Under the pieces are notes generated by a model, which was not told the DNA's origin, made no database searches, and was given only the letters and a program-made list of their open reading frames with translations. This document shows positions 36,512 through 63,767 of a stretch of DNA of 64,000 bases, piece by piece. The DNA is taken from the NCBI GenBank assembly GCA_014762625.1, contig JABURQ010000087.1, positions 1 through 64,000 of the forward strand, written 5' to 3'. Source of the stretch: Planctomycetaceae bacterium (lineage in GTDB: Bacteria > Planctomycetota > Planctomycetia > Planctomycetales > Planctomycetaceae). A program made the position numbers and the translations under genes. Every line of letters begins with the position of its first letter. Position 1 is the stretch's first letter.

Positions 36512-37555
36512 GTGAATTCCCAGCCGCGCCAATCAACCCCCGCGTCCCCCGCTCCCGCCGATCTGGCAGCGACTTACGATCCCATGATTCGGGGAACGAT
36601 TCTGGGTTTGATCTCGGCGTTAGCCTATACTGCAGCCAACATCGCACTCCGCAATCTCTCGGGGACGGATGGATTGGTCTGGGCCTGCTGGGTGGCCGGC
36701 GTGAAGGCAATCCCTTGCTTCGTACTCTCCGTCGTACTCGTCAGTTTCCGCTGGATGACCGGCAAACAGGCCTTTCCTCCCCGGCATACCGTGCTGATGC
36801 TGTTTGCGGCCGCCATAATGATGCAGTACGGCGGCAACGCCTGCTTCAATTGGGCGTTGAACAAGGTCGGTCTGATCCTGACGGTTCCGATCGTCTTCTC
36901 GACGTTGATTTCCGGGAGCGCGATTCTGGGACGTCTGTTTCTCGGCGAACCGATCAACGCGCGGACTCTCGCTTCGATGGGATTGTTGCTGATGTCGATT
37001 ATCTGCCTGTCGCTGGCGGCGGACGGGACATTCCCCGACGCCTCCGCGTTCACCATCGGAACGGGAATGCTTCTCGCCGGGACCTCGGGAATGTCGTACG
37101 GTGCCAACAGCATCGTGATCCGTCGATTTCTCGGCGGACAATATTCGGTCTCCTCGATTCTGCTGATCATGAGTACGAGCGGTATCGTTTTGCTGGGTGT
37201 CCCGGCATTTTTCATGATGGGGACCGAGCGCATCGGAGAGATCACCTGGTCCCAATGGAATTCGATGTTCTGGGCGGGCGTCAGCAACGCGATTGCGTTT
37301 TACGCAGTCTCGTCCGCATTGAAATACATTCCTGCGGTGAGGGCCAATTTATTGAACGCCTCGCAAACCGCGATGTGCGCCTTGGCGGGGATACTGATTT
37401 TCAACGAACGAATGACACCTCTGACCGCGGTGGGGATCGGACTGACGATTGCCGGTCTGACGCTGTTAGGCGCGCGACGCAAGAAAACGCTTCGTCGCGA
37501 ACTGGAAACTCAAACCGAGATATCACCGGAAGAAGCAACGTCAATTCGCGAGTAA
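36512..37555 (+). CDS. DMT (EamA) family transporter
   Basis: A 347-residue membrane protein with ten hydrophobic segments in two EamA repeats. The first starts near residue 25 (IRGTILGLISALAYTAANIALRNLSG), and the second near 180 (FTIGTGMLLAGTSGMSYGANSIVIRRFLGG). Family members export amino acids, nucleosides or other small metabolites; the substrate is unknown. The start is GTG 36512 with AGGA about ten bases ahead. Its 3' end overlaps the convergent FHA gene by 15 bases. Confidence 0.85.
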   Translation: MNSQPRQSTPASPAPADLAATYDPMIRGTILGLISALAYTAANIALRNLSGTDGLVWACWVAGVKAIPCFVLSVVLVSFRWMTGKQAFPPRHTVLMLFAAAIMMQYGGNACFNWALNKVGLILTVPIVFSTLISGSAILGRLFLGEPINARTLASMGLLLMSIICLSLAADGTFPDASAFTIGTGMLLAGTSGMSYGANSIVIRRFLGGQYSVSSILLIMSTSGIVLLGVPAFFMMGTERIGEITWSQWNSMFWAGVSNAIAFYAVSSALKYIPAVRANLLNASQTAMCALAGILIFNERMTPLTAVGIGLTIAGLTLLGARRKKTLRRELETQTEISPEEATSIRE

Positions 37556-38539
37556 AATCGAAAGCAGATCGCGAAGTTTCTGATCCTGTTCGCGGGAATC
37601 GGTCAGACGAATCAGGCCCTGGTTGTCTTCCGAAATCAGCATTTTCAAGACGCGACGATAATAATCCTTCTCTTCTCCGGTCTCTCCGCGGGAATGGGCC
37701 AAGGCCGCTTCTCGCAGCAGAATCTGATAGTCCTCGAGTTCGTCATCTTCGCCGCCGTAGAACTGGCGAATCTCGATTCTGGCAGTTGATTGATCGACCG
37801 ACGATCGTCCACCCGGCTCGGGAGCCATCACCATCAACAACACGGAAGAAATCAAACTGAGTCCCAACACCACTCCCAGCAACAGCGGATTTCCTCCCGA
37901 ACTCTGTTTCTTCTCGGAGGATTTTTTCTCTTTGCCGCCTCCCTCGATTTCCGCCAGATGAAGCTCGGGTAAGTGTCCGTCCTCGCCGAGTTGGACGAGC
38001 GGATCTCCGACCTGATCCGTGATGAATTTCGCGACGTTTCTTTGACGGGCGGTGGCCGATTTTGACTTTTTCTCTTTCGGGCTTTCTTTCGAACCGGAAG
38101 CTTCCGACGCCGGCGTTTTTTTCATTTTCGCGGGAGCGGGCATTCCTTTGACTTGTAACGGCTTGCCCTCTTTGGCCGACGCGGTTTTCGACTTCGAGGC
38201 TTTCGTGCCGGAGGGGTTTTGCACGCGAAACTCCAGCTCGGTCTCTTCGCCGATCTTGATCAGAGCTTCTTCGGGGAGCCAGACCCATTTTTCACCGGGG
38301 AGCAAATTGCCTTCCACCGTCACCATGCCGCCGCGCGCCGCGTAAATCGCATACCGCTCGTTCCGCAACACGATGCTCAATTCGTAATCCTGGAGATCTT
38401 TGGCTTTCAATCGACAATCGGATTCCGGTCCCCGTCCGAAATGGACGAGATCCTCGCGCAGCTCGAAGGTCCGCCCTTTTTCGGGACCTTTGAGAAATTT
38501 CAGAACGGCCAGGAAGGATGTCGTTTTTGCTTCCGACAA
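37541..38539 (-). CDS. Membrane-anchored FHA-domain protein of the pilus cluster
   Basis: A 332-residue protein. An FHA domain occupies about residues 12-106 (KGRTFELREDLVHFGRGPESDC is its start), which should bind phosphothreonine peptides. A long Lys/Ser/Ala-rich linker (110-215) leads to one membrane helix at 217-239. About 90 residues, acidic and helical, lie on the far side. The start is TTG 38539 with GGAG six bases ahead; the nearest upstream ATG runs into a stop. It is the last gene of the Tad-type cluster, 35 bases behind tadC, and probably links kinase signalling to the pilus platform. No counterpart of this protein is known to me in classical tad loci. Confidence 0.8.
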   Translation of the reverse strand: MSEAKTTSFLAVLKFLKGPEKGRTFELREDLVHFGRGPESDCRLKAKDLQDYELSIVLRNERYAIYAARGGMVTVEGNLLPGEKWVWLPEEALIKIGEETELEFRVQNPSGTKASKSKTASAKEGKPLQVKGMPAPAKMKKTPASEASGSKESPKEKKSKSATARQRNVAKFITDQVGDPLVQLGEDGHLPELHLAEIEGGGKEKKSSEKKQSSGGNPLLLGVVLGLSLISSVLLMVMAPEPGGRSSVDQSTARIEIRQFYGGEDDELEDYQILLREAALAHSRGETGEEKDYYRRVLKMLISEDNQGLIRLTDSREQDQKLRDLLSILLAN

Positions 38540-38574
38540 AAGTCACTCCAACATGAAACAGACAGGCTACGGAA

Positions 38575-39531
38575 TTACAACGAAAAACTATCCAACAGAA
38601 AATTCAACACGAACGGCCCCAGAATCACGATCACAGTCGATAACATCACCAGCACGGCCGGCAGTAACATCTTCACGCCCGCCTCGTTCGCCAGAGTCTC
38701 CGCACGCTGAGATCGCTTTAATCGTAACACATCCGCCTGAGAGCGGAAAATTGTCGCCAGCGGGGTTCCCAGTTCCTCTCCCTGAATAATCGAGCCGAGG
38801 AGACTGGTGATTTCGTCGTCCTGCAAGCGATCGCGCATCGCCTGAAAGGCGGCGGTTCGATTTTTTCCCATCCTCATCTCCGTCAGCACCCGGGAAAATT
38901 CCACTCCCACCGGATGATCGGAGAATTCCCGAACCGCCTGTTCCATCGCCTGCATGAACGCGGATCCGGCCTCCATCAGCAACGTAATCAAGTCGAGAAA
39001 ATAGGGCAATCGGCGTTTGATTCTGAGAAGACGATACGCAGAATTGTGGGACAGTCGGCGACGCAGGACAACTCCCGTCAACAGAGTCATCACTAACGCC
39101 AGAAACCAGCCCGCCGTTCCCATCATCGTCATATTCACATAAAAGTAAACGGGAAACATCAACACACTGATCACGACATTGCGGGCCAGATATTCTTCCG
39201 CAATCCAGAACCGACACTCGCCCGACGTTTGAATTTCCCGATTCACCTCCGGCAATCCGTCTCGAAACAGGTTCCGACAAGGGGTCGCCAGTAATTGAAT
39301 GAGCGGTTGAAAGACTCGGTAAAACGTACTCGCGCGACGCAACTCGTTGATGCGGGAGACGTCGTAACGCCAGTCGTCATCCTGCTGGAGATCATCGCTC
39401 GCCATCGCCACGAGCAAGGTCCGCACGAGGAAGCACGCTCCCAAGCCCATCAACGCGCATCCCACCAGCAGGATCATCTGATCCGTGGAAGTTGCCGCCA
39501 GCGTTTCAAAATGCAGGGATATTGGAGTCAT
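38575..39531 (-). CDS. tadC: Type II/IV secretion platform protein, TadC-like
   Basis: A 318-residue inner-membrane protein of the T2SSF family. Hydrophobic helices lie near residues 18-38 and 112-150, with a final one near 290-312. The cytoplasmic T2SSF domain between them contains LPYFLDLITLLMEAGSAFMQAME and MGKNRTAAFQAMRDRLQDDE, typical of TadC. With TadB it forms the platform that couples the CpaF ATPase to pilin assembly. It is the second-to-last gene of the cluster, 42 bases after tadB. Confidence 0.87.
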   Translation of the reverse strand: MTPISLHFETLAATSTDQMILLVGCALMGLGACFLVRTLLVAMASDDLQQDDDWRYDVSRINELRRASTFYRVFQPLIQLLATPCRNLFRDGLPEVNREIQTSGECRFWIAEEYLARNVVISVLMFPVYFYVNMTMMGTAGWFLALVMTLLTGVVLRRRLSHNSAYRLLRIKRRLPYFLDLITLLMEAGSAFMQAMEQAVREFSDHPVGVEFSRVLTEMRMGKNRTAAFQAMRDRLQDDEITSLLGSIIQGEELGTPLATIFRSQADVLRLKRSQRAETLANEAGVKMLLPAVLVMLSTVIVILGPFVLNFLLDSFSL

Positions 39532-39573
39532 ATCAGGAGATCGAGGATGAAGTAGGAGTGAGTTTCAAAAGTA

Positions 39574-40425
39574 TCAAATGTCGGGGTTGAGGATCTTGCG
39601 CGCCCAGAGGTACGCCATCACATCGAGGATCAACGACATGCTGAGCATAAACTGGCCCGGAATTGTCGTAAAAAGTCGCATCGTACTCACGGGATCCACG
39701 AAAAAGTAATACATCGCCAGAATCATAAACGGCGCTAACGCCATATAGACGGAAGAGGAGCGGGCCTGAGCCGTTTCGGCTTGAATCTTCCGTTCGAGTC
39801 GCTGCATCTCCCGAATGGACCGGGCGATTCGCTCGATCACGTCGTTGAGGCGACCGCCGCTCGCACGACTCGCCTGCATGGCGGCGGAGAATAACGCGAA
39901 GTTTTCACTCTTCAACCGGTCTTTGGTTTCTTCCAGCACTTCGTCGAGGGTTTTTCCCAACTTGTATTCCGTCATCATCTGCTGGAATTCCTGGGAAATG
40001 GGACGCGGTGATTGATCGGCGAGAATCTCCAGCGACTGCGGCAACGAGAGCCCCGCCTTGATCGCGCTGGCTAACGAGACCATCGAATCTGCCAGTTGAT
40101 CTTCGATTTTCTCTTTGCGGCGTCTGGCCATTCGTCGCACGAGATACCACGGCACACAAAACAGGATGACAGCCGCCACGAACCCCAACACGGGCATCGC
40201 GAGAGCAATCCACATAAAGACAAAAAACGCTCCCACCGCGCCGAGCCAGGCCAGAATGATAGCCCGCAATCGCTTCACACGCACGCGCAGACGGCGAAAC
40301 TTTTCCGTAAAGTCGCGTTCGAGAAAATCGAGCCCGACATCCCAGGTATCGGCACCGGCCCAGGCCAGCAAGCTGATCCCCGCTCCTACAAAGCCGGAGC
40401 CCAGTATCATTTCGAGGGGAATCAT
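39574..40425 (-). CDS. tadB: Type II/IV secretion platform protein, TadB-like
   Basis: A 283-residue T2SSF-family membrane protein. Two helices near residues 60-100 (IILAWLGAVGAFFVFMW, LGFVAAVILFCVPWYLV) precede the cytoplasmic domain (QLADSMVSLASAIKAGLSLPQSLEILA, ASGGRLNDVIERIARSIREM), and a last pair lies at the C-terminus. It is somewhat shorter than proteobacterial TadB. Its start overlaps the stop of the FHA-CpaF gene by four bases, so translation is coupled. Confidence 0.87.
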   Translation of the reverse strand: MIPLEMILGSGFVGAGISLLAWAGADTWDVGLDFLERDFTEKFRRLRVRVKRLRAIILAWLGAVGAFFVFMWIALAMPVLGFVAAVILFCVPWYLVRRMARRRKEKIEDQLADSMVSLASAIKAGLSLPQSLEILADQSPRPISQEFQQMMTEYKLGKTLDEVLEETKDRLKSENFALFSAAMQASRASGGRLNDVIERIARSIREMQRLERKIQAETAQARSSSVYMALAPFMILAMYYFFVDPVSTMRLFTTIPGQFMLSMSLILDVMAYLWARKILNPDI

Positions 40426-42377
40426 GATTTCGCCCTCCCGTTCGTAGTCGAGGCTTTCCGGGGACTCCCCGCTCGATCGGCGTCACCCGCCACTTCATCG
40501 CCGTACAGAAACTCCAGTTTCAACAACTCCCGATCCATCAGTTCATCGATGAATGTCGGCAAATACCCGGTGGGACGCAGACTCACGCCGTCGCGGAAAT
40601 TGAAGATATCGATCACCGTCAGTTCCTGGCGATCGGAGTCATAGCCGACCACTTCGGAAATCTGGGTGACCGAGCGTTTCCCTCCCGGCAAACGGGTAAT
40701 CTGAACCACGAGATCGATCGCCGAGGCGATCTGTCTTTGGATGGAGGAGACCGGAAGATCGACCGCCATCAACACGAGCACTTCCAGTCGTTTGAGCACA
40801 TCGTCGGTGCTGTTGGCGTGAATGGTGGTCATCGACCCGTCGTGACCGGTATTCATCGCCTGCAACATATCCAGCGCTTCGCCGCCGCGACATTCCCCCA
40901 CGATCACACGGTCGGGCCGCATCCGCAACGCGTTTTTCACCAGATCGCGAATCGTGTACTCGCCGGTCCCTTCCACGTTCGCCGGCTTCGTTTCCAGCGT
41001 GACGACGTGTTCCTGATGGAGTTGTAGTTCGGTCGTGTCTTCGATGGTGATGATTCGATCGCGATGCGGAATGAAACTCGACAGCACATTCAGCATCGTG
41101 GTTTTACCGGTTCCCGTCCCCCCGCTGACCAGCAGATTCCGACGGTTAATCACACAGGCTCTGAGAAACATCGCCGCGGCGGACGAAATGCTGTCCAACT
41201 CAATCAGATCGTCCATCGAAAACCGATGCACGGGAAACTTTCGAATCGTGAGCGTCGGACCGCGAACCGCCAGGGGCGGGATGATCGCATTCACGCGCGA
41301 GCCGTCCGCCAGTCGCGCATCGACGAGCGGCTGTGATTTATCGATGCGTCGCCCCACCTGAGCCACGATGCGTTCGATGATCGATTCGGTCACTTTGTCC
41401 GAAATAAATCGACGACCCGACAGTTCAATCACGCCGTCTCGTTCGACGTAAATCTGATCGCTTTGCACGACCATGATTTCCGAGATGGTGGGAGCCCGCA
41501 ACAAGTCCTGCAAAGGTCCGTACCCGAAGACGGTATCTTTCAAATCTTTTTTTAAGGTTCGTAAGACGATGTAGCGTTTGAGTTCCTGATGCAGATGCGG
41601 ACGCAGGAAAGGAAACGTCTGGTTGAATTTGTCCTCCACGCGATTGATTTGCGAGGAGAGGTCCGGCTGGGCGTCGAGTTCCATCCGCTCGCGGGCAAAC
41701 ATCAGCAGATTCGCGAGTTCCGTTTCCCGTTCCGGAACCAGCGTCGCCGGGACGTCGAATTCGTTGTACGTCAGTCCGGCGACCGACTTCGTCTCCTCAC
41801 GATCGCTCTCCAGAATCATTTGATTGATGACCAGATCGCGCAGGACCAGCCCGATCACTTCTTCGAGCAACGCCTCGTTCTCTTCATCGAAGACCTTCAT
41901 CTCGCGGCAAACATCCTCGATGTTTCGTTCGAGCATTAAAATGCTCTCGTCGTCCCCCATGCGGCTCGCATCGAGTTCGTAAACGTCGAACCGTTCGAGC
42001 AACTTGCGATGCACGCGCAATTCCAAATCGGCCATCACCGACCGCAGATGAGCCTCCATCTCGGTCCGGGAAATGGGAGCCGCCTGTTCCGTCTCCAGCG
42101 TCAACGTATAAGGCCAGATGCGCAGCGTCTCTCCCGCCGGGAATTCGGTCGATTCTCCCCCCATCAATTCCCGGTCCCCGACCATGCAACTATTGAGGCC
42201 GACATTTTCGATCGAGAGTTTGTCTTCTTTCTCACGAATGATGGCCTGACGCTTGGCGACGAGCGGACTTTTGAGAATCAGCAGATTGGACGGATCGCGT
42301 CCGATGTGGACGACGGTTTCCTCCGTCTCCAGCAACGCGCGCCGACTTTCGTGAATTTTGTTGTACCAGATTTTCAT
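40422..42377 (-). CDS. cpaF: CpaF/TadA-type pilus ATPase with N-terminal FHA domain
   Basis: A 651-residue ATPase, about 200 residues longer than usual CpaF. Residues about 10-98 form an FHA-like domain ([23 protein letters not shown], with the Gly-Arg and the later Asn-rich turn [14 protein letters not shown]). The rest is a complete secretion ATPase: the N-terminal domain, [21 protein letters not shown], Walker [10 protein letters not shown] at 419-427, the Asp box [13 protein letters not shown], and Walker [20 protein letters not shown]. It powers pilin assembly or disassembly. The FHA module suggests control by Thr phosphorylation. It overlaps cpaB upstream and tadB downstream by four bases each. 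Confidence 0.9.
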
Positions 42378-43114
42378 CGGATCGGTTCGTTCTCCAGTTC
42401 AGCCGAATGCAACAACACCTGCGGCGGATTCGTATTGTTGCCGAGCATCTGGAACAACTTCTCCGCTTCCGCTTCGAGTTTCCCGTCGGTCACTTTCACA
42501 CTGATCCCGATGAGGTGTTCCTGACCGCCGGAACGTGAGTAGGCTTGTCGGGGGTCGCGATCTCCCGTTCGTGCTCCCAGCGAAAGAATTCGAAACGGAC
42601 CTACGATCGTCGATCCGGCGGTTTGGACCACCGGATTGCTGGAATTCCCGACGGCGGATTGGGACATGGTACGGGGAAAGATAAACGAAATCAGGTTGCC
42701 CGGGCTGACCCGTTCGGGAATGAAGGTACTGTTATCGACGGGGACCCAGCGCGCGACCTCGTTTTTCGCCAACAGATGACTGAAATCCCGTACGCTGGGA
42801 GTACGCAAATCCTGCCACAGCAGAATTTCGTTTCCTCGATAGGCTTTGGTCGCCGCCATCCCGGTGACCGACGCTTTGTCTTTCCAGAAGATACCGACCT
42901 CATTCAGGTTCCCCAGGTGGTCGCGGGGGAGATCGACTTTCGTCAGATGCTCGTCCCGAAAGCGATCTCCCAGATTCAGTTGCGCGTCGCCCCGTAGCGC
43001 CACAAAAGAAACCTTCTCCATGCGGGAGGCCTGCCGCGCCAGATAGGCCCAGTTGCAGATCGCTCCAATGATGCCGAGGGCCACGGCAATGATCAAACCC
43101 GGTAAACCTCTCAT
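42374..43114 (-). CDS. cpaB: Flp pilus assembly protein CpaB/RcpC-like
   Basis: A 246-residue protein with one N-terminal helix (LPGLIIAVALGIIGAICNWAYLA). An SAF-like domain follows (AQLNLGDRFRDEHLTKVDLP; NEVARWVPVDNSTFIPERVSPGNLISFIFPRT), as in CpaB/RcpC, which sits in the periplasm at the secretin and binds peptidoglycan. The start ATG 43114 has GAGGAG ahead and overlaps the stop of the preceding gene by four bases; a longer upstream frame has no ribosome site. The usual partner secretin CpaC is not next to it. Confidence 0.83.
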   Translation of the reverse strand: MRGLPGLIIAVALGIIGAICNWAYLARQASRMEKVSFVALRGDAQLNLGDRFRDEHLTKVDLPRDHLGNLNEVGIFWKDKASVTGMAATKAYRGNEILLWQDLRTPSVRDFSHLLAKNEVARWVPVDNSTFIPERVSPGNLISFIFPRTMSQSAVGNSSNPVVQTAGSTIVGPFRILSLGARTGDRDPRQAYSRSGGQEHLIGISVKVTDGKLEAEAEKLFQMLGNNTNPPQVLLHSAELENEPIR

Positions 43115-44073
43115 GGGGACTCCTCGCGTAACCGGGTGACGTTGAGAATTCCTCGCAACCGGTCCTGAGATTCTATTTGGATGTGTATTGTTAGTGATTG
43201 GGAAGCGGAGTCGGTCCTCCGCAGGAATTCCGCCGAACTCGACGGACCGTTTGCGGACCAATCCTCCACCAATATGAATTGATGTCGGGAAAGATGATTT
43301 TCAAATTCCGTTCGCCATTGCGGTAACGTTCCCGTTCCCGAAAAGCTCAGAAAGTTCTGATCGCTTGCGGTCTGAAATCCCAGATCGCAAACCGCTCCTT
43401 CCGGCAGAATCGTTTTCCAGTCAAACGACTCCCGAGAATCGCTACGACCTTGCGGTGAAAAGACCCACCCCGTCCAACGAGACTCTCCCTCCGGAACGAC
43501 GAAGCCCCAGCTTACCACACGAGCCTCCTGATTTTGACTCCGATTTTCAGAGGCCTCGGAATTCCCGTCCACCGCCACGAACGCCGCCAGCGGAGCATCC
43601 TGAAAATAGATTTCGACGCCTGAAGCAGTCGTCCGCACCGGTTTCTGATCGCGAATCGCTTTCAGAAGTGACCGTTCGCTCTCCGTCGGCTCCTGCGTCG
43701 GAACGCGGACGTTTTTCGCGCTGTCGGAGAGTCGGTCCGCCATCTGCTCGCCGACCTCTTCTGTGGTTCCGGTGAGCGCGAATCGTTCGAAACCGACGTC
43801 GAAGAAACCGGATTCGATCCGGACTGAATCTTCCGCGAGAAAATCGGGCGGCCCCAGATCGTCCGCCAGTCGGTTCTTATCGAGAGAGACCGCTTCCTCG
43901 GGCGAGGTATTCCACCAGTCGAGGACGGATTCCCCCATCGTCAGCCCGGCGAAGAGGACGATGCAAATCGCGATCAGATCGTTGGTCCGCGAGAAGATCT
44001 TCTGCGCACGTGTTTTCCCTTGAGGAGCGGATTCCGGAAGATCCGTAGACATCTGATTCTCGGTGAGCGACAT
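43111..44073 (-). CDS. Single-pass membrane protein of unknown function in the pilus cluster
   Basis: A 320-residue protein that I do not recognise. The N-terminus is cytoplasmic and polar. One helix (about residues 32-49, DLIAICIVLFAGLTMGE) is followed by some 265 periplasmic residues: an acidic segment, a beta-rich middle (ARVVSWGFVVPEGESRWTGWVFSP) and a Ser/Arg-rich end. It has no lipobox and no secretin repeats. It lies between the third TadE/G-like gene and cpaB, where a secretin or its pilotin might be expected, and overlaps cpaB by four bases, so it is very probably part of the machine. A second start at 44052 is possible. Confidence 0.75.
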   Translation of the reverse strand: MSLTENQMSTDLPESAPQGKTRAQKIFSRTNDLIAICIVLFAGLTMGESVLDWWNTSPEEAVSLDKNRLADDLGPPDFLAEDSVRIESGFFDVGFERFALTGTTEEVGEQMADRLSDSAKNVRVPTQEPTESERSLLKAIRDQKPVRTTASGVEIYFQDAPLAAFVAVDGNSEASENRSQNQEARVVSWGFVVPEGESRWTGWVFSPQGRSDSRESFDWKTILPEGAVCDLGFQTASDQNFLSFSGTGTLPQWRTEFENHLSRHQFILVEDWSANGPSSSAEFLRRTDSASQSLTIHIQIESQDRLRGILNVTRLREESP

Positions 44074-44083
44074 GAGGTTTCAA

Positions 44084-45154
44084 TCAGTATCCCGGAGGCA
44101 AACTTTGCAGAAAGAAATCGTGATCGCGAATCTTCTGTTCCAGTTCGGCATCCGAGTAGGGACCGAGAGGAATATACCCCACAATCGTTTGACGATTGCG
44201 GAGTTCCCGGTCATAAACGTCGCGCCAGGTGGTCGCCATCCGACGGGGGACCCGCTGAATCCGTCGAAGAAAATTCCGGAGCTGCCCCGAGTCGCGATAT
44301 TCTTCAAACGAATCCACACAGCCGGAAGGGTGGGGATGAAAATTGGGAGGCCAGGAGGAATGGTAATCGAGCCATTCCCAATCGGCGTCCAATGCATCCA
44401 GGTCGTCCACATTCCGTGATGTGGTATCATTTTTGTTAGTCAGTGCCTGCAGGTTTGCCAGCGCCCTCTTTAAGGCCAGAAAGTTATCGAGATTCTGGGC
44501 TCCAACTTCCTGCGGCATCAAACTGATATCGTACAACGTATTCGCACGCCATTGATCCGTCCGGACATTGCCACTGTACGGCTGATTGGCGACATGACCG
44601 ATGTTTCCATAATCCCAGTCGCCTTGCAGATAGTCGTACTCGTGATTGACGCGATAGTTTCCATCGTCGGAAAGAATTCGCTGCAACATCGGAAACTGTC
44701 GGGTGCGTCGCACTCGTCCGCGACGCATGCCGTTTTCCATCACAAACTTGCGATTGACTCGCAGGCTCTTTCCGAACACCGGTTCCTGCAAATTCCCCTG
44801 CAGAGCGTTCGAGCGTCCCTGGGTATTGGTGTTGGGAACATTCCAGGTCTGTGGCAGATTCTGGAGTCGCCCGCCCTCTTCCCCCTGAATCGTTCCCGGT
44901 TCGGGCCAATCGTCGGGTTGCGGGTTGATATTTGTCGCCGACAACGCGTAGTTCGAATTGCGCAGACTTTCGGTTTGCGTCGCCGCATAGTGGGCGGCGG
45001 TCTGTGCGCGAATTTTGAAGAGCGACGCATCCGAAAAACAGATCATCAGCGCCCCCATCAACAGCAGAAACGGCGCGAACAGAACCAGTTCCAACGGCGC
45101 TAAACCGGCGCGGGGATGCGAGGGAACGGATTTTGAATGGCGTTTTTTCATCAT
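44084..45154 (-). CDS. TadE/TadG-like pseudopilin, large
   Basis: A 356-residue protein. A basic N-terminus is followed by the TadE-like segment RAGLAPLELVLFAPFLLLMGALMICFSDASLFKIRAQTAAHYAA: the Glu five residues or so into the hydrophobic stretch and the helix ending in an A-rich region are typical of minor pseudopilins. About 300 residues of periplasmic, Asn/Arg/Trp-rich sequence follow with no recognised domain. TadE/F/G pseudopilins are processed and needed for Flp pilus biogenesis; this one is longer than TadE. It is the third of three such genes in a row. Confidence 0.78.
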   Translation of the reverse strand: MMKKRHSKSVPSHPRAGLAPLELVLFAPFLLLMGALMICFSDASLFKIRAQTAAHYAATQTESLRNSNYALSATNINPQPDDWPEPGTIQGEEGGRLQNLPQTWNVPNTNTQGRSNALQGNLQEPVFGKSLRVNRKFVMENGMRRGRVRRTRQFPMLQRILSDDGNYRVNHEYDYLQGDWDYGNIGHVANQPYSGNVRTDQWRANTLYDISLMPQEVGAQNLDNFLALKRALANLQALTNKNDTTSRNVDDLDALDADWEWLDYHSSWPPNFHPHPSGCVDSFEEYRDSGQLRNFLRRIQRVPRRMATTWRDVYDRELRNRQTIVGYIPLGPYSDAELEQKIRDHDFFLQSLPPGY

Positions 45155-45179
45155 TCTGTTCGGATTGTAAGTTCCTGTA

Positions 45180-46919
45180 TCAGTGGGGACTGATCTGGCG
45201 GATATTCGACGCAGAGAAACCCGTCAGATTCGGCGGCGCAACGGGCCCTCCATTCCAAACCTGGGAGTTCAGGATGTCGACCAATTGATCTGAGGTCGCC
45301 GGGACCATTTTGGTACGCCAGTTTTGAGTCATCATCGACCAGTCGTTCCGGCTGGAAGGCCAGTTATTGCCGTTGGCATGCATCCCCTGCAAACCGAAAT
45401 AATCGGAGCTCGATTGCTCGATCCAGGGATAGCGGAGCATCCTGCGGGGGAGGTAGATTTTCGACTGGGCGTAGGTCATCGTCATTTGTTCGCGAAATGG
45501 ATTATCGAACACCTTATGAGCGAACTGACGAATCGGCACCCAACCGATCGCACCGACAAACTGATAATCTTCTCGCATCGCTCGCGCATCGGGCAGGGGC
45601 TTGTAGTAAACGTTGTTGTAGAACGATGAGAGAGGTTGTCCCCGGCGCTTGGGATCGACGACATGCCAGTCTTCAACTTCTCCGCGAAGAATAAACGGCA
45701 GATTGCTACACGCGAATTCCTCGTGCAGCATCCGATTCAGTTCGGGACAATTGAAGATTCTCCAGAAATTCGACAACTGCGACAAACTCGCGCGGTCGCG
45801 ACCGAAGAATCCCGGCGTGGTACGGTTTGAGGTTCGTTCCCGGGCATACACATCGACCCAGTGAAATATCAGTTCGTCCAGATATCGCCTGGCTAACGCC
45901 GTTCGTGTGTCGTACGAATATTTCAGAACGAGTTGGTCGGGCGGTAATGCGGCTGGATCGGCTGGCTGTTGTGGATCGAAGACATTCGCCACCGGAGCGG
46001 GACCACCTGAGTTCGTGGGGGTTCCCTGTGAATCGACAAAGACACATTGAACGTTGACGACAATATCCTGGTAATACGGATTGGCCGGAGTCGGATCGAT
46101 TACCGGTAGCGTCCGATCTCTGGCCATCGTTTCGAATGATTGAGCTTCCTGCATCGTCCTACCGTCGCGCGCACGAAACAGATAGAAGGTCGGCTCGAAA
46201 CCGAAATGTTTTTCGGCTTGCCCTTCGGTATGACGGCGGACCACTTCTTCGGCCACCGATTGTGCGAGCAGCGGAGTATTCATCATCACCGAACGCTGAA
46301 ACTCGGTGATCAATCCGCCTTGTGGGGGAATGCCGACATAAGGATCTTTCCCGCTGGCGTAATAGTCGATCACGCCATCGCCGCGAAGCAGATACTCGAA
46401 CACCTCCAACGTCTGCCAGGCATGACCGCGGATGAATTCGTCGTACCGTGTGACGACTTCTTCTTCCAACGGAATCTTCCGCTGGATCGCCTGCCCCAAC
46501 GCTTCCAGCTTTTTGATGTTCGCCGCTCCTCCTCTGCGTTCGAGCACCTCCGCCACTTCCTGCCATTTCTTCAAGGCTTCGCGAGCGGCTTGCGCCGATT
46601 CCAGCGGCTGCCCTTCTTCGATGTCGTCGTTGATGATCCGCATGTAGGCGGTTATCGCAAACACCTCGCACAAGAGATGATTAGAATACGCAATCGCGTT
46701 CATTCCGCGCGTCAACGTGCGTGTACCGCTATAAGTCGCCGCATCGGCGGCGTTCTGCATCCGCAGCTTTTCATCGATCTGCTTCCCCATGTTGAAAATC
46801 ATGCCCAGCAATAAAGTCAGCATGAAAATCGTGATCACGCCCATGGCGCTCAACACACCACGTTCGTCGCGGTGCAAGCGGGTGGCGAGGGTAACGGGAT
46901 GGAATCGATCAATATTCAT
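45180..46919 (-). CDS. TadG-like protein with von Willebrand-free periplasmic domain
   Basis: A 579-residue protein. DERGVLSAMGVITIFMLTLLLGMIFNMGKQIDEKLRMQNAADAATYSG fits the TadE/TadG N-terminus (Tad domain: one helix, then NAADAAA-like). The rest is a large soluble domain with many Arg, Tyr and Asn residues and no Cys-rich or vWA motif that I can see. The start ATG 46919 lies in a GGAGG-bearing region inside the end of the preceding gene, overlapping it by 11 bases; an upstream frame to 46955 lacks such a site. Probably periplasmic and tied to pilus assembly. Confidence 0.75.
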   Translation of the reverse strand: MNIDRFHPVTLATRLHRDERGVLSAMGVITIFMLTLLLGMIFNMGKQIDEKLRMQNAADAATYSGTRTLTRGMNAIAYSNHLLCEVFAITAYMRIINDDIEEGQPLESAQAAREALKKWQEVAEVLERRGGAANIKKLEALGQAIQRKIPLEEEVVTRYDEFIRGHAWQTLEVFEYLLRGDGVIDYYASGKDPYVGIPPQGGLITEFQRSVMMNTPLLAQSVAEEVVRRHTEGQAEKHFGFEPTFYLFRARDGRTMQEAQSFETMARDRTLPVIDPTPANPYYQDIVVNVQCVFVDSQGTPTNSGGPAPVANVFDPQQPADPAALPPDQLVLKYSYDTRTALARRYLDELIFHWVDVYARERTSNRTTPGFFGRDRASLSQLSNFWRIFNCPELNRMLHEEFACSNLPFILRGEVEDWHVVDPKRRGQPLSSFYNNVYYKPLPDARAMREDYQFVGAIGWVPIRQFAHKVFDNPFREQMTMTYAQSKIYLPRRMLRYPWIEQSSSDYFGLQGMHANGNNWPSSRNDWSMMTQNWRTKMVPATSDQLVDILNSQVWNGGPVAPPNLTGFSASNIRQISPH

Positions 46920-48108
46920 AGACCGCCTCCCCATAGATCGGTAGCAGCCCGTCATTGTTCATCGTCGCCGTCGCATGAATCACAAACACTCCCGGATTCG
47001 CGCGAGCCGCTCGATTTTGTTCCTGAGTCCCCAACTCGGCTCCCTGCGTCATGAATTCCTCCCAGGCATAGGGATCGACTAACGTCGAATGATTATGACG
47101 CCGCGAAGAAGACCATTGACGTTCGACATACTGAAAGAGTGCGCCGAAACCGGGCATCAGACCAAAGCGATGGTAGACATGCACATTGATCGGGTCCTGC
47201 CAACCTACTTCGTAAGGTTCGTGAGGTTCATAATTATTGGAGTCCGGCGGATAATCGGCGGGATTGTAGGTCAAACCTTCCATCACCAGAAACTGATCTC
47301 CGGTGGCTCGTTTCGCTCGCCGCCATTCCAGAAACACCATCGTGTTTTCTTCCGCCCAGCGGAGTTTGCGTCCGACGCGTTGACGAAGGACATTCTCATT
47401 CAGGCCGGGTTGCTGGTTCATCCAATAGCCCTGAACAATCTCATTAATGGTCTCCATGCTCGGATGAACCACTCCGGGAATCTGCTCATCGACATCTTGC
47501 TGAATTGTCGAGGGACAAAACGGAGCCAATGCCAGCACCGAAGCGGTCCAGACTTTACGATACTTGGGACTGTAATTGATCGAAGTGGGACCGAGAATTC
47601 CATAAATCTGCATTTCGTTCGGCACACCGGATGCCCGTAAGCCCGCAAAATAGTTAGCTGCCCCAGCGGGATCTTTCGGAATCTCGGAAACCTGTTGCCC
47701 CAGTTGGGAGACATGGAGAAATGCGGAGACATTGTTGATGTAGGGATTGTCCGCATCGTAGAGAACGTGATTGGGAGTCTCGCGGAGACTGTCGTAAGAC
47801 GAAAAGGTATAAGTCGGCAACCAGACCGCTGCCGCTCGCGCCCCTGCATAGGCGGAGTAATGGACGCCCATCGTCGCCATCAGAACCTGACTCAACTGGA
47901 TGATCATGCAGATCAACGCCATAAAGACAGGCAACGTCACCACGAGCGCCAACGATTGAACGCCCCCCTCCTGATCGCGGTGCAATTGCTTGAGACGCCG
48001 CCAGTCCCACGAGGCTCGGCTCAAACGGATCATCAGACCCAACACCCCGAACGCCACGATCATCAAGATCGCAAATGGCAGACAGGCTTCGAGTATCTGA
48101 CGATGCAT
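46909..48108 (-). CDS. TadE/TadG-like protein
   Basis: A 399-residue protein with two N-terminal hydrophobic segments: residues about 10-28 (FAILMIVAFGVLGLMIRL) and a TadE-like one at 46-75 (DQEGGVQSLALVVTLPVFMALICMIIQLSQVLMA), followed by YSAYAGARAAAVWLP, the usual Ala-rich end of the pseudopilin helix. A Pro/Tyr/Asn-rich periplasmic domain of about 300 residues has no recognised family. It is the first of the three large TadE/G-like genes, 36 bases behind the prepilin peptidase gene. Confidence 0.75.
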   Translation of the reverse strand: MHRQILEACLPFAILMIVAFGVLGLMIRLSRASWDWRRLKQLHRDQEGGVQSLALVVTLPVFMALICMIIQLSQVLMATMGVHYSAYAGARAAAVWLPTYTFSSYDSLRETPNHVLYDADNPYINNVSAFLHVSQLGQQVSEIPKDPAGAANYFAGLRASGVPNEMQIYGILGPTSINYSPKYRKVWTASVLALAPFCPSTIQQDVDEQIPGVVHPSMETINEIVQGYWMNQQPGLNENVLRQRVGRKLRWAEENTMVFLEWRRAKRATGDQFLVMEGLTYNPADYPPDSNNYEPHEPYEVGWQDPINVHVYHRFGLMPGFGALFQYVERQWSSSRRHNHSTLVDPYAWEEFMTQGAELGTQEQNRAARANPGVFVIHATATMNNDGLLPIYGEAVYEY

Positions 48109-48144
48109 GCGTAAAACTCTCTGAGTCGAAAAACCTTCCTGCGG

Positions 48145-48690
48145 TTAGTAAATGATTCCCTGTTGTGCCAGCCACGACTTGGAAATCACAATCAACGTGG
48201 CCGCCAATGCGGCGGGTGCCAGGAACAACCAGCGTTGTAACGGCTCCCGTTCGTCGGGTGTCGGGTTGATCCAACCTCTGGCTTTCATCATCAACCAGAC
48301 GTGATGGGTACTTTTTCTGATCAAATGAATCACGCCGAATTTCCAAATCAGGATCACCATTCCCATCACGCTTCCCAGAATAAACGTCCACAGCATCGCT
48401 TCGATGCCGTCCATGATTCCCAAAAACGCGCCCATCATGGCGATCAGCTTGACGTCCCCTCCTCCAATATCAAACAGGGCAAAACAAACCACCATCGAGA
48501 CGCCGCAGATCAGAAAACCGACCAGCGAGGCCTGAAATCCTTCCCAGCCCTGTAAAGCGATCGACAGTCCGAAAGCCAGCAGGATGCCGGGATAGGTGGT
48601 CCAGTTGTAAATTTTGTGTTGTTTAAGATCCGTGATCGTGGCCACGATCAGCAGCCCCAGCAGACAGATCGTTCGCGGGGACAATTCCAT
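48145..48690 (-). CDS. cpaA: Prepilin peptidase, CpaA/TadV-like (A24 family)
   Basis: A 181-residue polytopic membrane aspartic protease. The two catalytic Asp are visible as D21 in ATITDLKQHKIYNW and D79 in DIGGGDVKLIAMMGA, the family signature. It lacks the N-terminal methylase domain of PilD, as expected for TadV/CpaA. It should cut the leader from the two small pilins encoded immediately upstream and perhaps from the TadE/G-like proteins. Confidence 0.9.
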   Translation of the reverse strand: MELSPRTICLLGLLIVATITDLKQHKIYNWTTYPGILLAFGLSIALQGWEGFQASLVGFLICGVSMVVCFALFDIGGGDVKLIAMMGAFLGIMDGIEAMLWTFILGSVMGMVILIWKFGVIHLIRKSTHHVWLMMKARGWINPTPDEREPLQRWLFLAPAALAATLIVISKSWLAQQGIIY

Positions 48691-48728
48691 TAGTCAATAA
48701 TTTCAATCGTCTGAATACAAATTCAGGA

Positions 48729-48950
48729 TCAGTTAATTTGATCGTTCGCCATACCACGCCCGTCCAGATCGAGGTCGCTCATGTTCGAATTAAAGCTCTT
48801 CTTCAACCGAGGCATGACAAAATTGACGATGAAAATCAAAATCGGAATCGCCACCGCCGCAACAATCAGGACCGTTTCAATTGAGACGGCCCCGCGTTCA
48901 TCGTTGTGGATGCGCTTTAACAGACTTCGAATGGGACGCAAGTTTGACAT
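48729..48950 (-). CDS. Flp-like small pilin (second copy)
   Basis: A 73-residue class IVb-type pilin precursor. The basic leader (RPIRSLLKRIHNDERG) precedes the processing site G/AVSIET, with the key Glu at +5 and a hydrophobic helix ETVLIVAAVAIPILIFIVNFVM. The Tyr that normally follows the Glu in Flp pilins is Thr here. The C-terminal 25 residues are short, polar and acidic, as in Flp. ATG 48950 has GAGGAG about nine bases ahead; a longer upstream frame has no ribosome site. Confidence 0.82.
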   Translation of the reverse strand: MSNLRPIRSLLKRIHNDERGAVSIETVLIVAAVAIPILIFIVNFVMPRLKKSFNSNMSDLDLDGRGMANDQIN

Positions 48951-49021
48951 GGTTTCAATACTCCTCTGTGACGTGAAGCTCCGACTTTCGACGTCGGAGA
49001 AAATATTTCCAGTGATATCAA

Positions 49022-49213
49022 TTACAGAAATGGCCAGGCCACCCAGCCCGAGATCAGTTCGTAAACGGCATTCAGCAAATCTCGCGTCCAGATCAACAGC
49101 GTCGCGGAAATGGCAATCATCGTACTGAGAGCCAAAACGTACTCCGCTGAACTGACTCCGCGACGCGATGAACCCGCGTTGCCGTGACATGTTCGCTGCT
49201 GTCCACGCATCAT
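49022..49213 (-). CDS. flp: Flp-type small pilin (first copy)
   Basis: A 63-residue class IVb pilin precursor. The leader ends SSRRG and the mature part begins VSSAEYVLALS, with the diagnostic Glu-Tyr pair of Flp pilins. A hydrophobic helix follows (MIAISATLLIWTRDLLNAVYELI). Start at tandem ATG codons 49213/49210 with AGGA nearby. It is the first small gene after the upstream CpaF ATPase and 72 bases ahead of the second pilin. Confidence 0.82.
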   Translation of the reverse strand: MMRGQQRTCHGNAGSSRRGVSSAEYVLALSTMIAISATLLIWTRDLLNAVYELISGWVAWPFL

Positions 49214-49418
49214 GATCCTGATTCCTGCCGACCCGCAATCTCTACTATAAACACTACATCGACGTTTGCAGACCAAAAATCCCCTTTTGGGTGTGTTTTT
49301 GAATCTCTCCATGGTTTCCAGAGAATTCCGTAAACTATTTACTTTAATAACCTTACGAGGTTTTTTCGACTTCTGGGACGATTCGATTTTGACGGTTAAT
49401 CGGGGGTGAATTCTACAT

Positions 49419-50543
49419 CTAGTCCCACATGTCGCGCGTTTTATCGATCAGATGATCCAAACCGTGCCCCTTCGCTTCGCCGGCAAAAGAGGGCTTTTCG
49501 CCAGTCGGCTCGAGGCTCATCTTGAGGTTCCCGTCCGCGTCGCGTCCCAGCATACGGTTTTCATACAAATCGTGAAACGTGTATTGTTCGTCGGTATCGA
49601 GCCCCATCACTTCGGTAATTTTCGTCACGCGACGGGAACCATCCTCCGAAAATCGCGTGATCTGCACGACGAGATGAATCGCCGAGGCGACCTGGGCCCG
49701 CGCGACGTAGACCGGCAATTGCACGTCCGACATCAGCGACAAAGTTTCGAGTCGAATCAGGGAATCGTGAGGCGAGTTGGCGTGGACCGTCGTCAAGCTT
49801 CCCGCGTGACCGCTGATCATCGATTGGACCATATCGAGCGCTTCGCCGCTCCGCACTTCCCCCACCACGATCCGGTCGGGTCGCATTCGCAATGACGCTT
49901 TGAACAATTGCCGAATTGTTAACTCCCCGCGCCCGGAGGAATCCTTCTGCTGCGATTCGAGATAGAGAGTATGCGGCTGTCCCAGTTTCAGTTCGGAACT
50001 GTCTTCGATCACCACCAAACGTTCTTCGGGAGGAATGCATTTCGAAATCGCGTTCAGCAATGTCGTCTTTCCCGTCCCGGTACCGCCCGATATGAGAATG
50101 TTCTTTTTCAGTTTGATGCAGATGTCGAGAAACTCCGCCGCCGACTCCGACAGACTCCCCAACCGCAGATAGTCCGCCAACCCCAGGATGTCCCTTTTGA
50201 ACTTGCGAATCGTGAGGTAGGTACCGCCGCGGGCGGAAGGAGGAATCACCGCATGCACGCGCGATCCGTCCGGCAAACGGGCGTCGAGAATAGGGCGATC
50301 GCGATCGATTTCGCGTCCGACATACTGGGCCACATTATGAACGGCGGTTTGCAACGCGTCCTCGCTCAGGAAGGCGGCGTCGGTTTCGTAGAGCTTCCCT
50401 TTCTTCTCGACGTAGATTTCCCGGGGCCCGTTCACCATGATTTCCGTGACGTCATCGTCAGCCAGAAATTCACTGATCGGGGCCAGGAAGTAATCGAGAC
50501 TCGCTTCAAAAATGGACTGTCGTGCCATGATGGTCTGTTTCAC
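49419..50543 (-). CDS. cpaF: CpaF/TadA-type pilus ATPase (no FHA domain)
   Basis: A 374-residue secretion ATPase, shorter than usual CpaF at the N-terminus. It has DDDVTEIMVNGPREIYVEKKGKL, the DARLPDGSRVHAVIPP segment, Walker [10 protein letters not shown] at 153-161, the Asp box RLVVIEDSSELKLGQ and Walker B RPDRIVVGEVRSGEALDM, then the His box in AGSLTTVHANS. It is paralogous to the FHA-CpaF at 40422-42377, giving the cluster two ATPases. The start may be GTG 50543 or ATG 50528; neither has a strong site. It opens the minus-strand pilus cluster and is divergent from the DUF1080 gene. Confidence 0.9.
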   Translation of the reverse strand: MKQTIMARQSIFEASLDYFLAPISEFLADDDVTEIMVNGPREIYVEKKGKLYETDAAFLSEDALQTAVHNVAQYVGREIDRDRPILDARLPDGSRVHAVIPPSARGGTYLTIRKFKRDILGLADYLRLGSLSESAAEFLDICIKLKKNILISGGTGTGKTTLLNAISKCIPPEERLVVIEDSSELKLGQPHTLYLESQQKDSSGRGELTIRQLFKASLRMRPDRIVVGEVRSGEALDMVQSMISGHAGSLTTVHANSPHDSLIRLETLSLMSDVQLPVYVARAQVASAIHLVVQITRFSEDGSRRVTKITEVMGLDTDEQYTFHDLYENRMLGRDADGNLKMSLEPTGEKPSFAGEAKGHGLDHLIDKTRDMWD

Positions 50544-55183: not shown

Positions 55184-55813
55184 TTATTTGACGTAGGATT
55201 CCAATTTCCCGCGCAACGTCTCACGGGCTCGAGACAACAGGGATTTCACCGCCGCCGGCGTCATTTCCATCGTTTCGGCGATATCCGCGTAGCTCATTCC
55301 CTCGAACTTGTTGAGTAAGACCGCCATTTGCTGTCGCTCGTTCAATTCGGTCAACGCCTCCTGAACGATTTTCTGTAATTCGGCTTTGTCGACTTGCCGT
55401 GTCGGCATCAATGACGATTTATCTTTCAGAATCTGTTCTTCCGGTCGGGCTCCCATCGGGCCGGAATCGGAAGGATTCAGTTTCACTTCTTTTCGGCGTC
55501 CTCGATCGCGCCGTTTGTTGCTGGCCAAATTGTGGGCAATATGAAACAACCAGGTCGAAAACTTCGCACGCGGTTCGTACCCCAGTCGGGCACGATAGAC
55601 TCTCAAAAATGTCTCCTGAGCCAGATCCTCGGCGACCGCCCGGTCCCGCACCAGATGAAAAAACAGGCCGATCAGGCGATCCTGATAAGAGGTCACCAAC
55701 CGGCTGAAGGCTTCGTCGTCTCCCGCTTTCACGCGCAGCATCAGCGCAACATCCGGATCGCGGAGGTACGCGGGCTGACTGGCCTTGAGTTCGCTGGTTG
55801 CCACTATGACCAC
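55184..55813 (-). CDS. ECF-type RNA polymerase sigma factor
   Basis: A 209-residue sigma factor. Region 2 shows DDEAFSRLVTSYQDRLIGLFFHLVRDRAVAEDLAQETFLRVYRA with the -10-binding WLFHIAHNLASNKRRD part. Region 4 is ELNERQQMAVLLNKFEGMSYADIAETMEMTPAAVKSLLSRARETL, a complete helix-turn-helix. The start is GTG 55813. It heads the operon with its anti-sigma factor and the helical membrane protein, and is divergent from the eboE gene. Its target genes cannot be read here; autoregulation is likely for such operons. Confidence 0.92.
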   Translation of the reverse strand: MVIVATSELKASQPAYLRDPDVALMLRVKAGDDEAFSRLVTSYQDRLIGLFFHLVRDRAVAEDLAQETFLRVYRARLGYEPRAKFSTWLFHIAHNLASNKRRDRGRRKEVKLNPSDSGPMGARPEEQILKDKSSLMPTRQVDKAELQKIVQEALTELNERQQMAVLLNKFEGMSYADIAETMEMTPAAVKSLLSRARETLRGKLESYVK

Positions 55814-62684: not shown

Positions 62685-63767
62685 ATGTCTTCATTTACAC
62701 TTGGGAAGACTGACCACACAAGCCGTACACCCTACTCCCCGTCAATGGATGACTTCCTTATGCTGCAAAAGCAGGACAACTACCCGAAAGTCTCGCTCTC
62801 GGAGACGGATAAACCACTTCCTAAATACTTTTCCAACGGCTTTACCCGCTACGCCACCTTCAAACCGATGGCCAAAGGGGGCAAAGCCGAGCTCTACAGC
62901 TGTCTGGATAAAAACCTGGGGAGACAGGTCGCCTTCAAAACGCTTCATCGTTCGATTTCCGATGATGAATACGAACGACGACGGTTTATTCGCGAAGCGC
63001 GGGTGACGGCTCAACTGCAACACCCGAACACCGTCCCCGTGTACGATATCGGAGTCGATGTCGAAGGGAAGTTGTACTTCACCATGAAAAAGGTGGAAGG
63101 CGAGACACTCCGCGACGTCATCAACCAGCTTCAGCAAAACGACGAGGAAGCCGCCGCCACCTACACGCTGGAACGGATTCTCGGTGTCCTGATTCAGGTC
63201 TGCAACGCGCTCTCCTACGCGCACGCTCACGGCGTCGTGCATCGAGACGTCAAACCGGCCAACATTCTGGTCGGTTTTTTCGGGGAAGTGGTACTGCTCG
63301 ACTGGGGAGTCGCCAAAGTTTGGGATATTCCCAAAGCGGAAGAAGAACGTATCACCAAAGAACAATCCATCCCCAGCAGTTCCTCCGACCAGGAACTGGA
63401 TCGCCTGACCGGGACCGGGAAAAGGCCGGGCACGCCGCTCTATATGTCCCCCGAACAGGTCGAAGGGACGGAGATCGACGAACGGACCGACGTCTACAGC
63501 ATGGGCGTTGTGCTGTATGAATTACTCACCCTGCAGGATGCCTCCCGCGGGAAAACAGTTAAGGATACCTTCCACAACATCGTTAACGTCGTTCCTCCGA
63601 ACGCCCGGGAAGCGGCTCCCGAACGGGACATCCCGCAGCCGCTCGAAGAAATCTGCATGAAAGCACTGCAGAAGAAAAAAGAAGACCGTTATCAGTCGAT
63701 GCTGGAATTCATCGATGCCATTCGCAGTCTGCGACGCAAAGCGCTCGAATCCGCCTTCACCGTTTAG
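62685..63767 (+). CDS. Serine/threonine protein kinase (DWG-type)
   Basis: A 360-residue cytoplasmic Hanks-type kinase. The Gly loop is AKGGKAELYSC, the ATP-binding Lys is K85 in VAFKTL, the catalytic loop is VVHRDVKPANIL (HRD at 186-188), and the metal motif reads DWG at 206-208 where most kinases have DFG; DWG is common in planctomycete kinases. The activation segment and GTPLYMSPEQVEG follow. It ends without a membrane helix or sensor domain. Phosphothreonine made by such a kinase could be read by the FHA proteins of the pilus cluster, which is only an inference. Its stop overlaps the convergent partial gene by three bases. Confidence 0.9.
   Translation: MSSFTLGKTDHTSRTPYSPSMDDFLMLQKQDNYPKVSLSETDKPLPKYFSNGFTRYATFKPMAKGGKAELYSCLDKNLGRQVAFKTLHRSISDDEYERRRFIREARVTAQLQHPNTVPVYDIGVDVEGKLYFTMKKVEGETLRDVINQLQQNDEEAAATYTLERILGVLIQVCNALSYAHAHGVVHRDVKPANILVGFFGEVVLLDWGVAKVWDIPKAEEERITKEQSIPSSSSDQELDRLTGTGKRPGTPLYMSPEQVEGTEIDERTDVYSMGVVLYELLTLQDASRGKTVKDTFHNIVNVVPPNAREAAPERDIPQPLEEICMKALQKKKEDRYQSMLEFIDAIRSLRRKALESAFTV

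Follow-up and report, generated by a model that had tools for sequence, protein, structure and literature searches.

Thirteen minus-strand genes, running from position 50528 down to 37541 of a 64,000-nucleotide stretch of DNA from a Planctomycetaceae bacterium (the window, bases 1-64000 of the 67,888-bp contig C36), encode a Tad-type core with two CpaF ATPases and no secretin. With slightly more confidence than doubt, this cluster was interpreted as a distinct and conserved Tad (type IVc) subtype that uses two motors, is controlled through FHA domains and has dropped its secretin module. No account of this arrangement was found in the open-access literature.

The host genome (G000) comprises 6.23 Mb in 208 contigs. 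Comparisons were made within a relatives set of 59 genomes (25 with cpaF1, the window's own included, and 34 without) and within a wider draw of 292 planctomycete genomes, 27 of which passed the set match threshold, most of them with a full-length cpaF1 orthologue.

Gene content of the cluster

The genes are ordered cpaF2, flp2, flp1, cpaA, tadE1, tadG, tadE2, X320, cpaB, cpaF1, tadB, tadC and a gene for an FHA protein with a transmembrane (TM) helix, termed FHA-TM. From flp2 onward, no intergenic gap exceeds 71 bp, and the pairs X320/cpaB, cpaB/cpaF1 and cpaF1/tadB overlap by 4 bp. The gap between cpaF2 and flp2 is approximately 205 bp. All features lie on the minus strand and were assigned as follows.

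49419-50528, minus strand: CpaF2, second Tad ATPase (Pfam T2SSE 8e-55; motifs, PDB CpaF alignment and tree clade)
49022-49213, minus strand: Flp2 pilin, predicted cleavage RRG/VSSAEY, Glu+5 (sequence and orthologue alignment; no Pfam match)
48729-48950, minus strand: Flp1 pilin, predicted cleavage ERG/AVSIE, Glu+5 (Pfam Flp_Fap 1.7e-4, below cut-off)
48145-48690, minus strand: CpaA prepilin peptidase (Pfam Peptidase_A24 6e-14)
46909-48108, minus strand: TadE1, TadE-like minor pilin without Glu+5 (Pfam TadE 1.1e-6)
45180-46919, minus strand: TadG-like protein, start uncertain between 46919 and 46955 (Pfam Tad 6e-6)
44084-45154, minus strand: TadE2, prepilin-like N-terminus AG/LAPLELVLFAPF and large exported domain (N-terminal motif kept across orthologues; no Pfam match)
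43111-44073, minus strand: X320, one TM helix and two alpha/beta periplasmic domains (AlphaFold2 model, pLDDT 74; orthologues)
42374-43114, minus strand: CpaB/RcpC, TM helix with D1 and D2 (TIGR03177 1.7e-8, below cut-off; fold match to RcpC)
40422-42377, minus strand: CpaF1, FHA domain, alpha region and CpaF motor (Pfam FHA 3e-6, T2SSE 4e-59; PDB CpaF 1e-96)
39574-40425, minus strand: TadB inner-membrane platform (Pfam T2SSF 9e-23)
38575-39531, minus strand: TadC inner-membrane platform (Pfam T2SSF 9e-17)
37541-38539, minus strand: FHA-TM protein, cytoplasmic FHA-like domain, TM helix at 219-237 (Pfam Yop-YscD_cpl 9e-6, below cut-off)

A preliminary description of the same DNA had listed 13 minus-strand genes with two CpaF proteins, two Flp-like pilins, CpaA, CpaB, TadB, TadC and three TadE/G-like proteins, and Pfam searches and fold matching bore this inventory out (two of the three TadE/G-like proteins pass the Pfam cut-offs). 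Its gene bounds were corrected for the start of cpaF2 (to approximately 50528), flp2 (49022-49213), flp1 (48729-48950) and the start of cpaB (43114). The two genes previously without assignment were identified as those for the one-TM periplasmic protein (43111-44073) and the FHA-TM protein (37541-38539).

Matches above curated cut-offs were obtained for both ATPases, both platform proteins, the prepilin peptidase, TadE and TadG, and no significant domain match was obtained in Pfam-type searches for Flp2, TadE2 and X320. The features that mark a Tad system were all present, namely CpaF, separate TadB and TadC, Flp with an A24 peptidase, CpaB/RcpC, and TadE/G. The TadG-like protein has matches in 25 of the 59 genomes in the relatives set, and proteins at the position of the FHA-TM protein in relatives match FHA above cut-off. 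X320 is conserved in position between tadE2 and cpaB, and the best fold neighbour of its model is DcrB (Z 8.9 over 94 residues). It was considered as a hidden secretin and rejected, since the model shows a single TM helix and domains that resemble DcrB/PsbP with intermediate Z scores, but no barrel, and no secretin match was obtained; other folds are conceivable. A sigma-70 promoter scan returned sites more rarely than in shuffles. An ECF-type sigma factor is encoded at 55184-55813 of the window, approximately 4.7 kb upstream of the Tad cluster.

The missing secretin and the shortened CpaB

The lack of secretin, TadZ and CpaD from the cluster had been reported before, and it was upheld: no secretin and no TadZ relative was found on contig C36, and CpaD (PF09476) was absent from the whole genome. 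No TPR protein was found among the 13 genes by domain search (no genome-wide TadD search was made). Two congeners (L059 and L060) carry all 13 genes in identical order with the same flanking neighbours. In two complete, single-contig relatives (G003 and G045), the order from flp to the FHA gene is kept, with no secretin or TadZ, and only cpaF2 has moved. Misassembly, beyond which a secretin gene had been imagined to lie, is excluded because the congeners and the two single-contig relatives share the gene order.

Loci were counted where they span the pilin-side genes to cpaF1. Neither a secretin nor TadZ was found in 27 such Planctomycetota loci, and the lone exception is the Phycisphaerae locus L084 (the same as L210), which has a secretin. 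There, a GspD-like secretin and a TPR lipoprotein are encoded before cpaB (L084:5968-9011, equal to L210:7926-10969), and the host genome of this locus (G124) carries a second, secretin-free copy of the cluster at L204. The same secretin-free layout was also seen in a metagenome-assembled genome labelled Deltaproteobacteria (L083). In G025 (L062), a Tad-type secretin is encoded approximately 4 kb upstream of the pilin genes; its neighbour is an S_185-like gene, an arrangement shared with the C84 system described below. In genus g28 (L215 in G148 and L075 in G029) the cluster is dispersed, with cpaF1 alone in a single-contig genome.

The sequence of CpaB returned nothing when searched against the PDB, and its predicted structure matched the fold of RcpC (9gzr, E 2e-7). 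Only 10 residues follow the last D2 strand of the window CpaB, and the L3 linker and the secretin-docking beta-hairpin are missing. Tails measure 4-10 residues in 16 core Planctomycetia clusters, whereas the median is 57 across 26 clusters linked to a secretin (Mann-Whitney p 7e-8, with no correction for relatedness). In Pseudomonas RcpC, the C-terminal hairpin is required for Tad function, and the L3 linker engages the secretin RcpA and is also required for oligomerisation (PMC12307814). Published work thus assigns docking to the very part that the planctomycete CpaB lacks.

Genome-wide, secretins and a TadZ relative were recovered on other contigs, each as part of another Tad machine. Two Tad-type secretins are present among the secretins of the host genome, at C146 and C84, and its only TadZ relative is at C146. 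A split Tad system comprises cpaA-cpaB-secretin-tadZ on C146 (L021:7378-12711) and cpaF-tadB-tadC on C32 (L020:6685-9984). C84 (L019:5129-18336) holds a self-contained second Tad cluster, which encodes a secretin of its own and a CpaB whose tail is hairpin-like; no TadZ match was found in it, and a sigma-54-type regulator gene lies inside it.

In the relative G010 (4.9 Mb, 96% complete, 80 contigs), the cluster extends from flp2 through the FHA gene. Searches of its genome recovered no further CpaF (at E 1e-80), and cpaF2, TadZ (at 1e-25) and a Tad-type secretin were likewise not found. Its secretins are one GspD-like protein of 1457 residues and a protein, reduced in length, from a secretin-like family that is nearly universal.

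Three sets of candidate partners were rejected. A 1444-residue protein of the C33 type, with a secretin-like C-terminus (L025:11841-16175 in G000), occurs in 58 of the 59 relatives, whether or not they carry the cluster. Next to the unlinked cpaF2 of G003 lies a gene for a short secretin-like protein (L180:9667-10803), which was seen in G003 only; most other matches to this query were to ordinary secretins or covered a short tail held in common. The genes upstream of cpaB in L205, L209 and L211 were considered as divergent secretins, and none matched Secretin; in the Phycisphaerae-type cluster at L211:8367-10989, ankyrin-repeat and lipase-like proteins precede cpaB.

Compared with canonical diderm Tad systems (Caulobacter cpa, Pseudomonas rcp/tad), the cluster shares CpaF, TadB/TadC, Flp, the prepilin peptidase, a CpaB of RcpC fold and TadE/G, but it lacks secretin, TadZ and CpaD and has a second ATPase, FHA domains and a truncated CpaB. 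It was classed as a Tad-core variant, and not as a canonical diderm Tad, because no secretin is present in the contig or the conserved neighbourhoods. Monoderm Tad pili also have no secretin, and several monoderm CpaB proteins have short tails (4-36 residues), but the planctomycete host is diderm, its cluster has two motors, and TadZ is found in at least one monoderm cluster (L098).

Two CpaF motors and the FHA domains

Both ATPases matched PDB CpaF (CpaF1 at 1e-96, CpaF2 at 2e-82), and Walker A, Walker B and the His box are kept in both (in CpaF2, Walker B RMRPDRIVVGE and His box TTVHANS). Neither has lost its motifs, so the inactivation of one cpaF that had been raised earlier was not borne out, and CpaF2 is catalytically intact by motifs. 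The alignment of CpaF2 to PDB CpaF (8rkd/9e24) begins at chain residue 149 of 9e24, and the protein consists of the second N-terminal domain (NTD2) and the C-terminal domain only. It lacks NTD0 and NTD1, because it starts where NTD2 of Caulobacter CpaF begins.

The two genes co-occur: cpaF2 was found in 23 of the 25 genomes with cpaF1 and in none of the 34 without it, the two exceptions being G010 and the 88%-complete G017. They are often unlinked, lying at 5.46 and 1.32 Mb in G003 and at 2.32 and 1.24 Mb in G045; a recurrent neighbour of the unlinked cpaF2 was looked for and none was found. In a tree of 100 CpaF proteins, all CpaF2 sequences and three Myxococcota proteins formed one clade (SH-aLRT 100), and CpaF1 grouped with the CpaF1-type FHA-CpaFs of the same three Myxococcota loci (SH-aLRT 89). 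By this tree, CpaF2 is an ancient subfamily common to Planctomycetota and Myxococcota.

The three Myxococcota loci (L086, L087 and L105) are dual-CpaF, FHA-type Tad clusters that also encode both CpaF subfamilies, CpaA, TadE/G, CpaB, TadB and TadC, with no TadZ relative found in the locus. They differ in encoding a short secretin between cpaB and cpaF1, and the CpaB tails of L086 and L087 measure 41-42 residues. Because these relatives keep that secretin, the simplest history would be that secretin and CpaB tail were lost in the planctomycete branch, a direction and timing that we infer.

An N-terminal FHA domain is present on CpaF1 (Pfam FHA 3e-6). In many Planctomycetia relatives the FHA gene is adjoined by Ser/Thr kinase genes, and in many Phycisphaerae-type loci kinase genes lie between tadE and tadG. 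The Kil system of Myxococcus xanthus has an FHA-fused ATPase (KilF) and many FHA proteins, lacks RcpB and TadD, and is assembled upon prey contact (PMC8460266). The planctomycete cluster shares the FHA-fused ATPase, the FHA richness and, as far as its 13 genes go, the lack of RcpB and TadD. It differs in its second ATPase, its TadG-like protein and the absence of a secretin, whereas Kil has one ATPase, the essential secretin KilC and no TadG. It was not filed as Kil because the single ATPase and the short secretin of Kil are not shared.

In the favoured explanation, CpaF1 would power Flp assembly, processed pilins being built by the TadB/TadC platform, and its FHA domain, together with the FHA-TM protein, may couple assembly to Ser/Thr phosphorylation, a role that would replace TadZ. 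CpaF2 would be a minimal and dispensable second motor on the same platform, most likely for retraction, as PilT is to PilB. CpaB/RcpC would form a periplasmic collar without the tail that docks the Tad secretin, and because this tail is lost, the filament may cross the outer membrane by a non-Tad route or work inside the periplasm. It probably reaches the cell surface, if at all, by an uncharacterised route. The earlier suggestion that the machine crosses the envelope differently is favoured by the absence of a Tad-type secretin from G010 and of the docking tail from CpaB.

The comparison with PilT is an analogy. The PilB/PilT type IVa pili likewise pair one extended motor with one minimal, often unlinked motor, and a minimal, unlinked and dispensable CpaF2 would resemble PilT; here both motors belong to the CpaF family, and retraction is a proposed role. 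The preliminary description had offered extension and retraction as one use of two ATPases, which is plausible but unproven in view of the intact motifs, the co-occurrence and the missing N-terminal domains of CpaF2.

Weighing the explanations

Several observations weigh against the favoured subtype and the roles assigned within it. Filament formation is putative. In Caulobacter, a single CpaF does both extension and retraction, and loss of NTD0 lowers retraction (PMC11300603); two motors need not correspond to these two jobs, and an NTD0-less CpaF2 could equally be a poor retractor. The absence of cpaF2 from G010 may mean that the second motor is dispensable, or that G010 is decaying or has an assembly gap. 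Support for the CpaF1 clade is moderate (SH-aLRT 89). No kinase gene lies next to the cluster in the genus to which the window belongs; the closest one found within the window is at 62685-63767. The GspD-like giant secretin could serve the cluster. A short CpaB tail is not a strict mark of secretin absence, because L084, of the same subtype, has a secretin with a 15-residue tail.

The filament may instead stay inside the cell envelope as a periplasmic pseudopilus, working like a piston or serving as an envelope linker; cargo might then exit through the GspD-like giant secretin. This is a possible but unlikely explanation. Pseudopili of type II secretion systems are short, neither a secretin nor a docking tail accompanies the cluster, and the closely examined genomes, G010 included, have the giant secretin. 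However, the presence of two Flp-type pilins with Glu+5 and of a motor that may serve retraction points to a dynamic pilus, and since the nearest Myxococcota relatives have a secretin, the ancestral filament would have been a surface one.

Quite unlikely is a conventional Tad machine that obtains its secretin and TadZ in trans from the C146 or C84 system. The host genome does encode two Tad-type secretins and one TadZ, and Kil itself is split over two loci (PMC8460266). The secretin-bearing systems own their CpaF and CpaB, however, the window CpaB has no docking tail, and G010 holds the cluster with neither Tad-type secretin nor TadZ. Outer-membrane parts located elsewhere had been anticipated in the preliminary description; secretins do exist on other contigs, but they are parts of other systems, and G010 and the CpaB tail oppose their use here.

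Also rather doubtful is a bolder reading that combines CpaF2 as a dedicated retraction ATPase with a filament that, having no secretin, exits through a planctomycete-specific envelope structure such as the crateriform pits. In Planctopirus, pili-like fibres have been seen joined to crateriform structures of the outer membrane, which make contact with the inner membrane (PMC5394234), and by analogy the pits are suggestive as an exit for a Tad filament.

That each ATPase serves one of the two pilins, another of the earlier proposals, was weakened to the point of being highly improbable: two of each are encoded in one cluster, but G010 keeps both pilins without cpaF2, and Flp1 and Flp2 remain adjacent where cpaF2 has moved off. 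An assembly gap or a decaying cluster is scarcely credible as the cause of the missing genes, since despite the 208 contigs and the separation of cpaF1 from the other cluster genes in genus g28, the secretin-free arrangement recurs in congeners and single-contig genomes and the open reading frames are intact and conserved.

Loss of the Tad secretin has been described as a mark of monoderm adaptation (PMC6668835). If the favoured subtype is real, a conserved secretin-free Tad lineage in a diderm phylum, together with the loss of CpaB docking, would provide a natural experiment on how type IV filaments get across an outer membrane or do without crossing it. A second CpaF kept since before the Planctomycetota and Myxococcota versions diverged would make the view of Tad as driven by a single bidirectional motor testable, and the association of FHA domains with kinases would tie the cluster to the contact-triggered Kil system.

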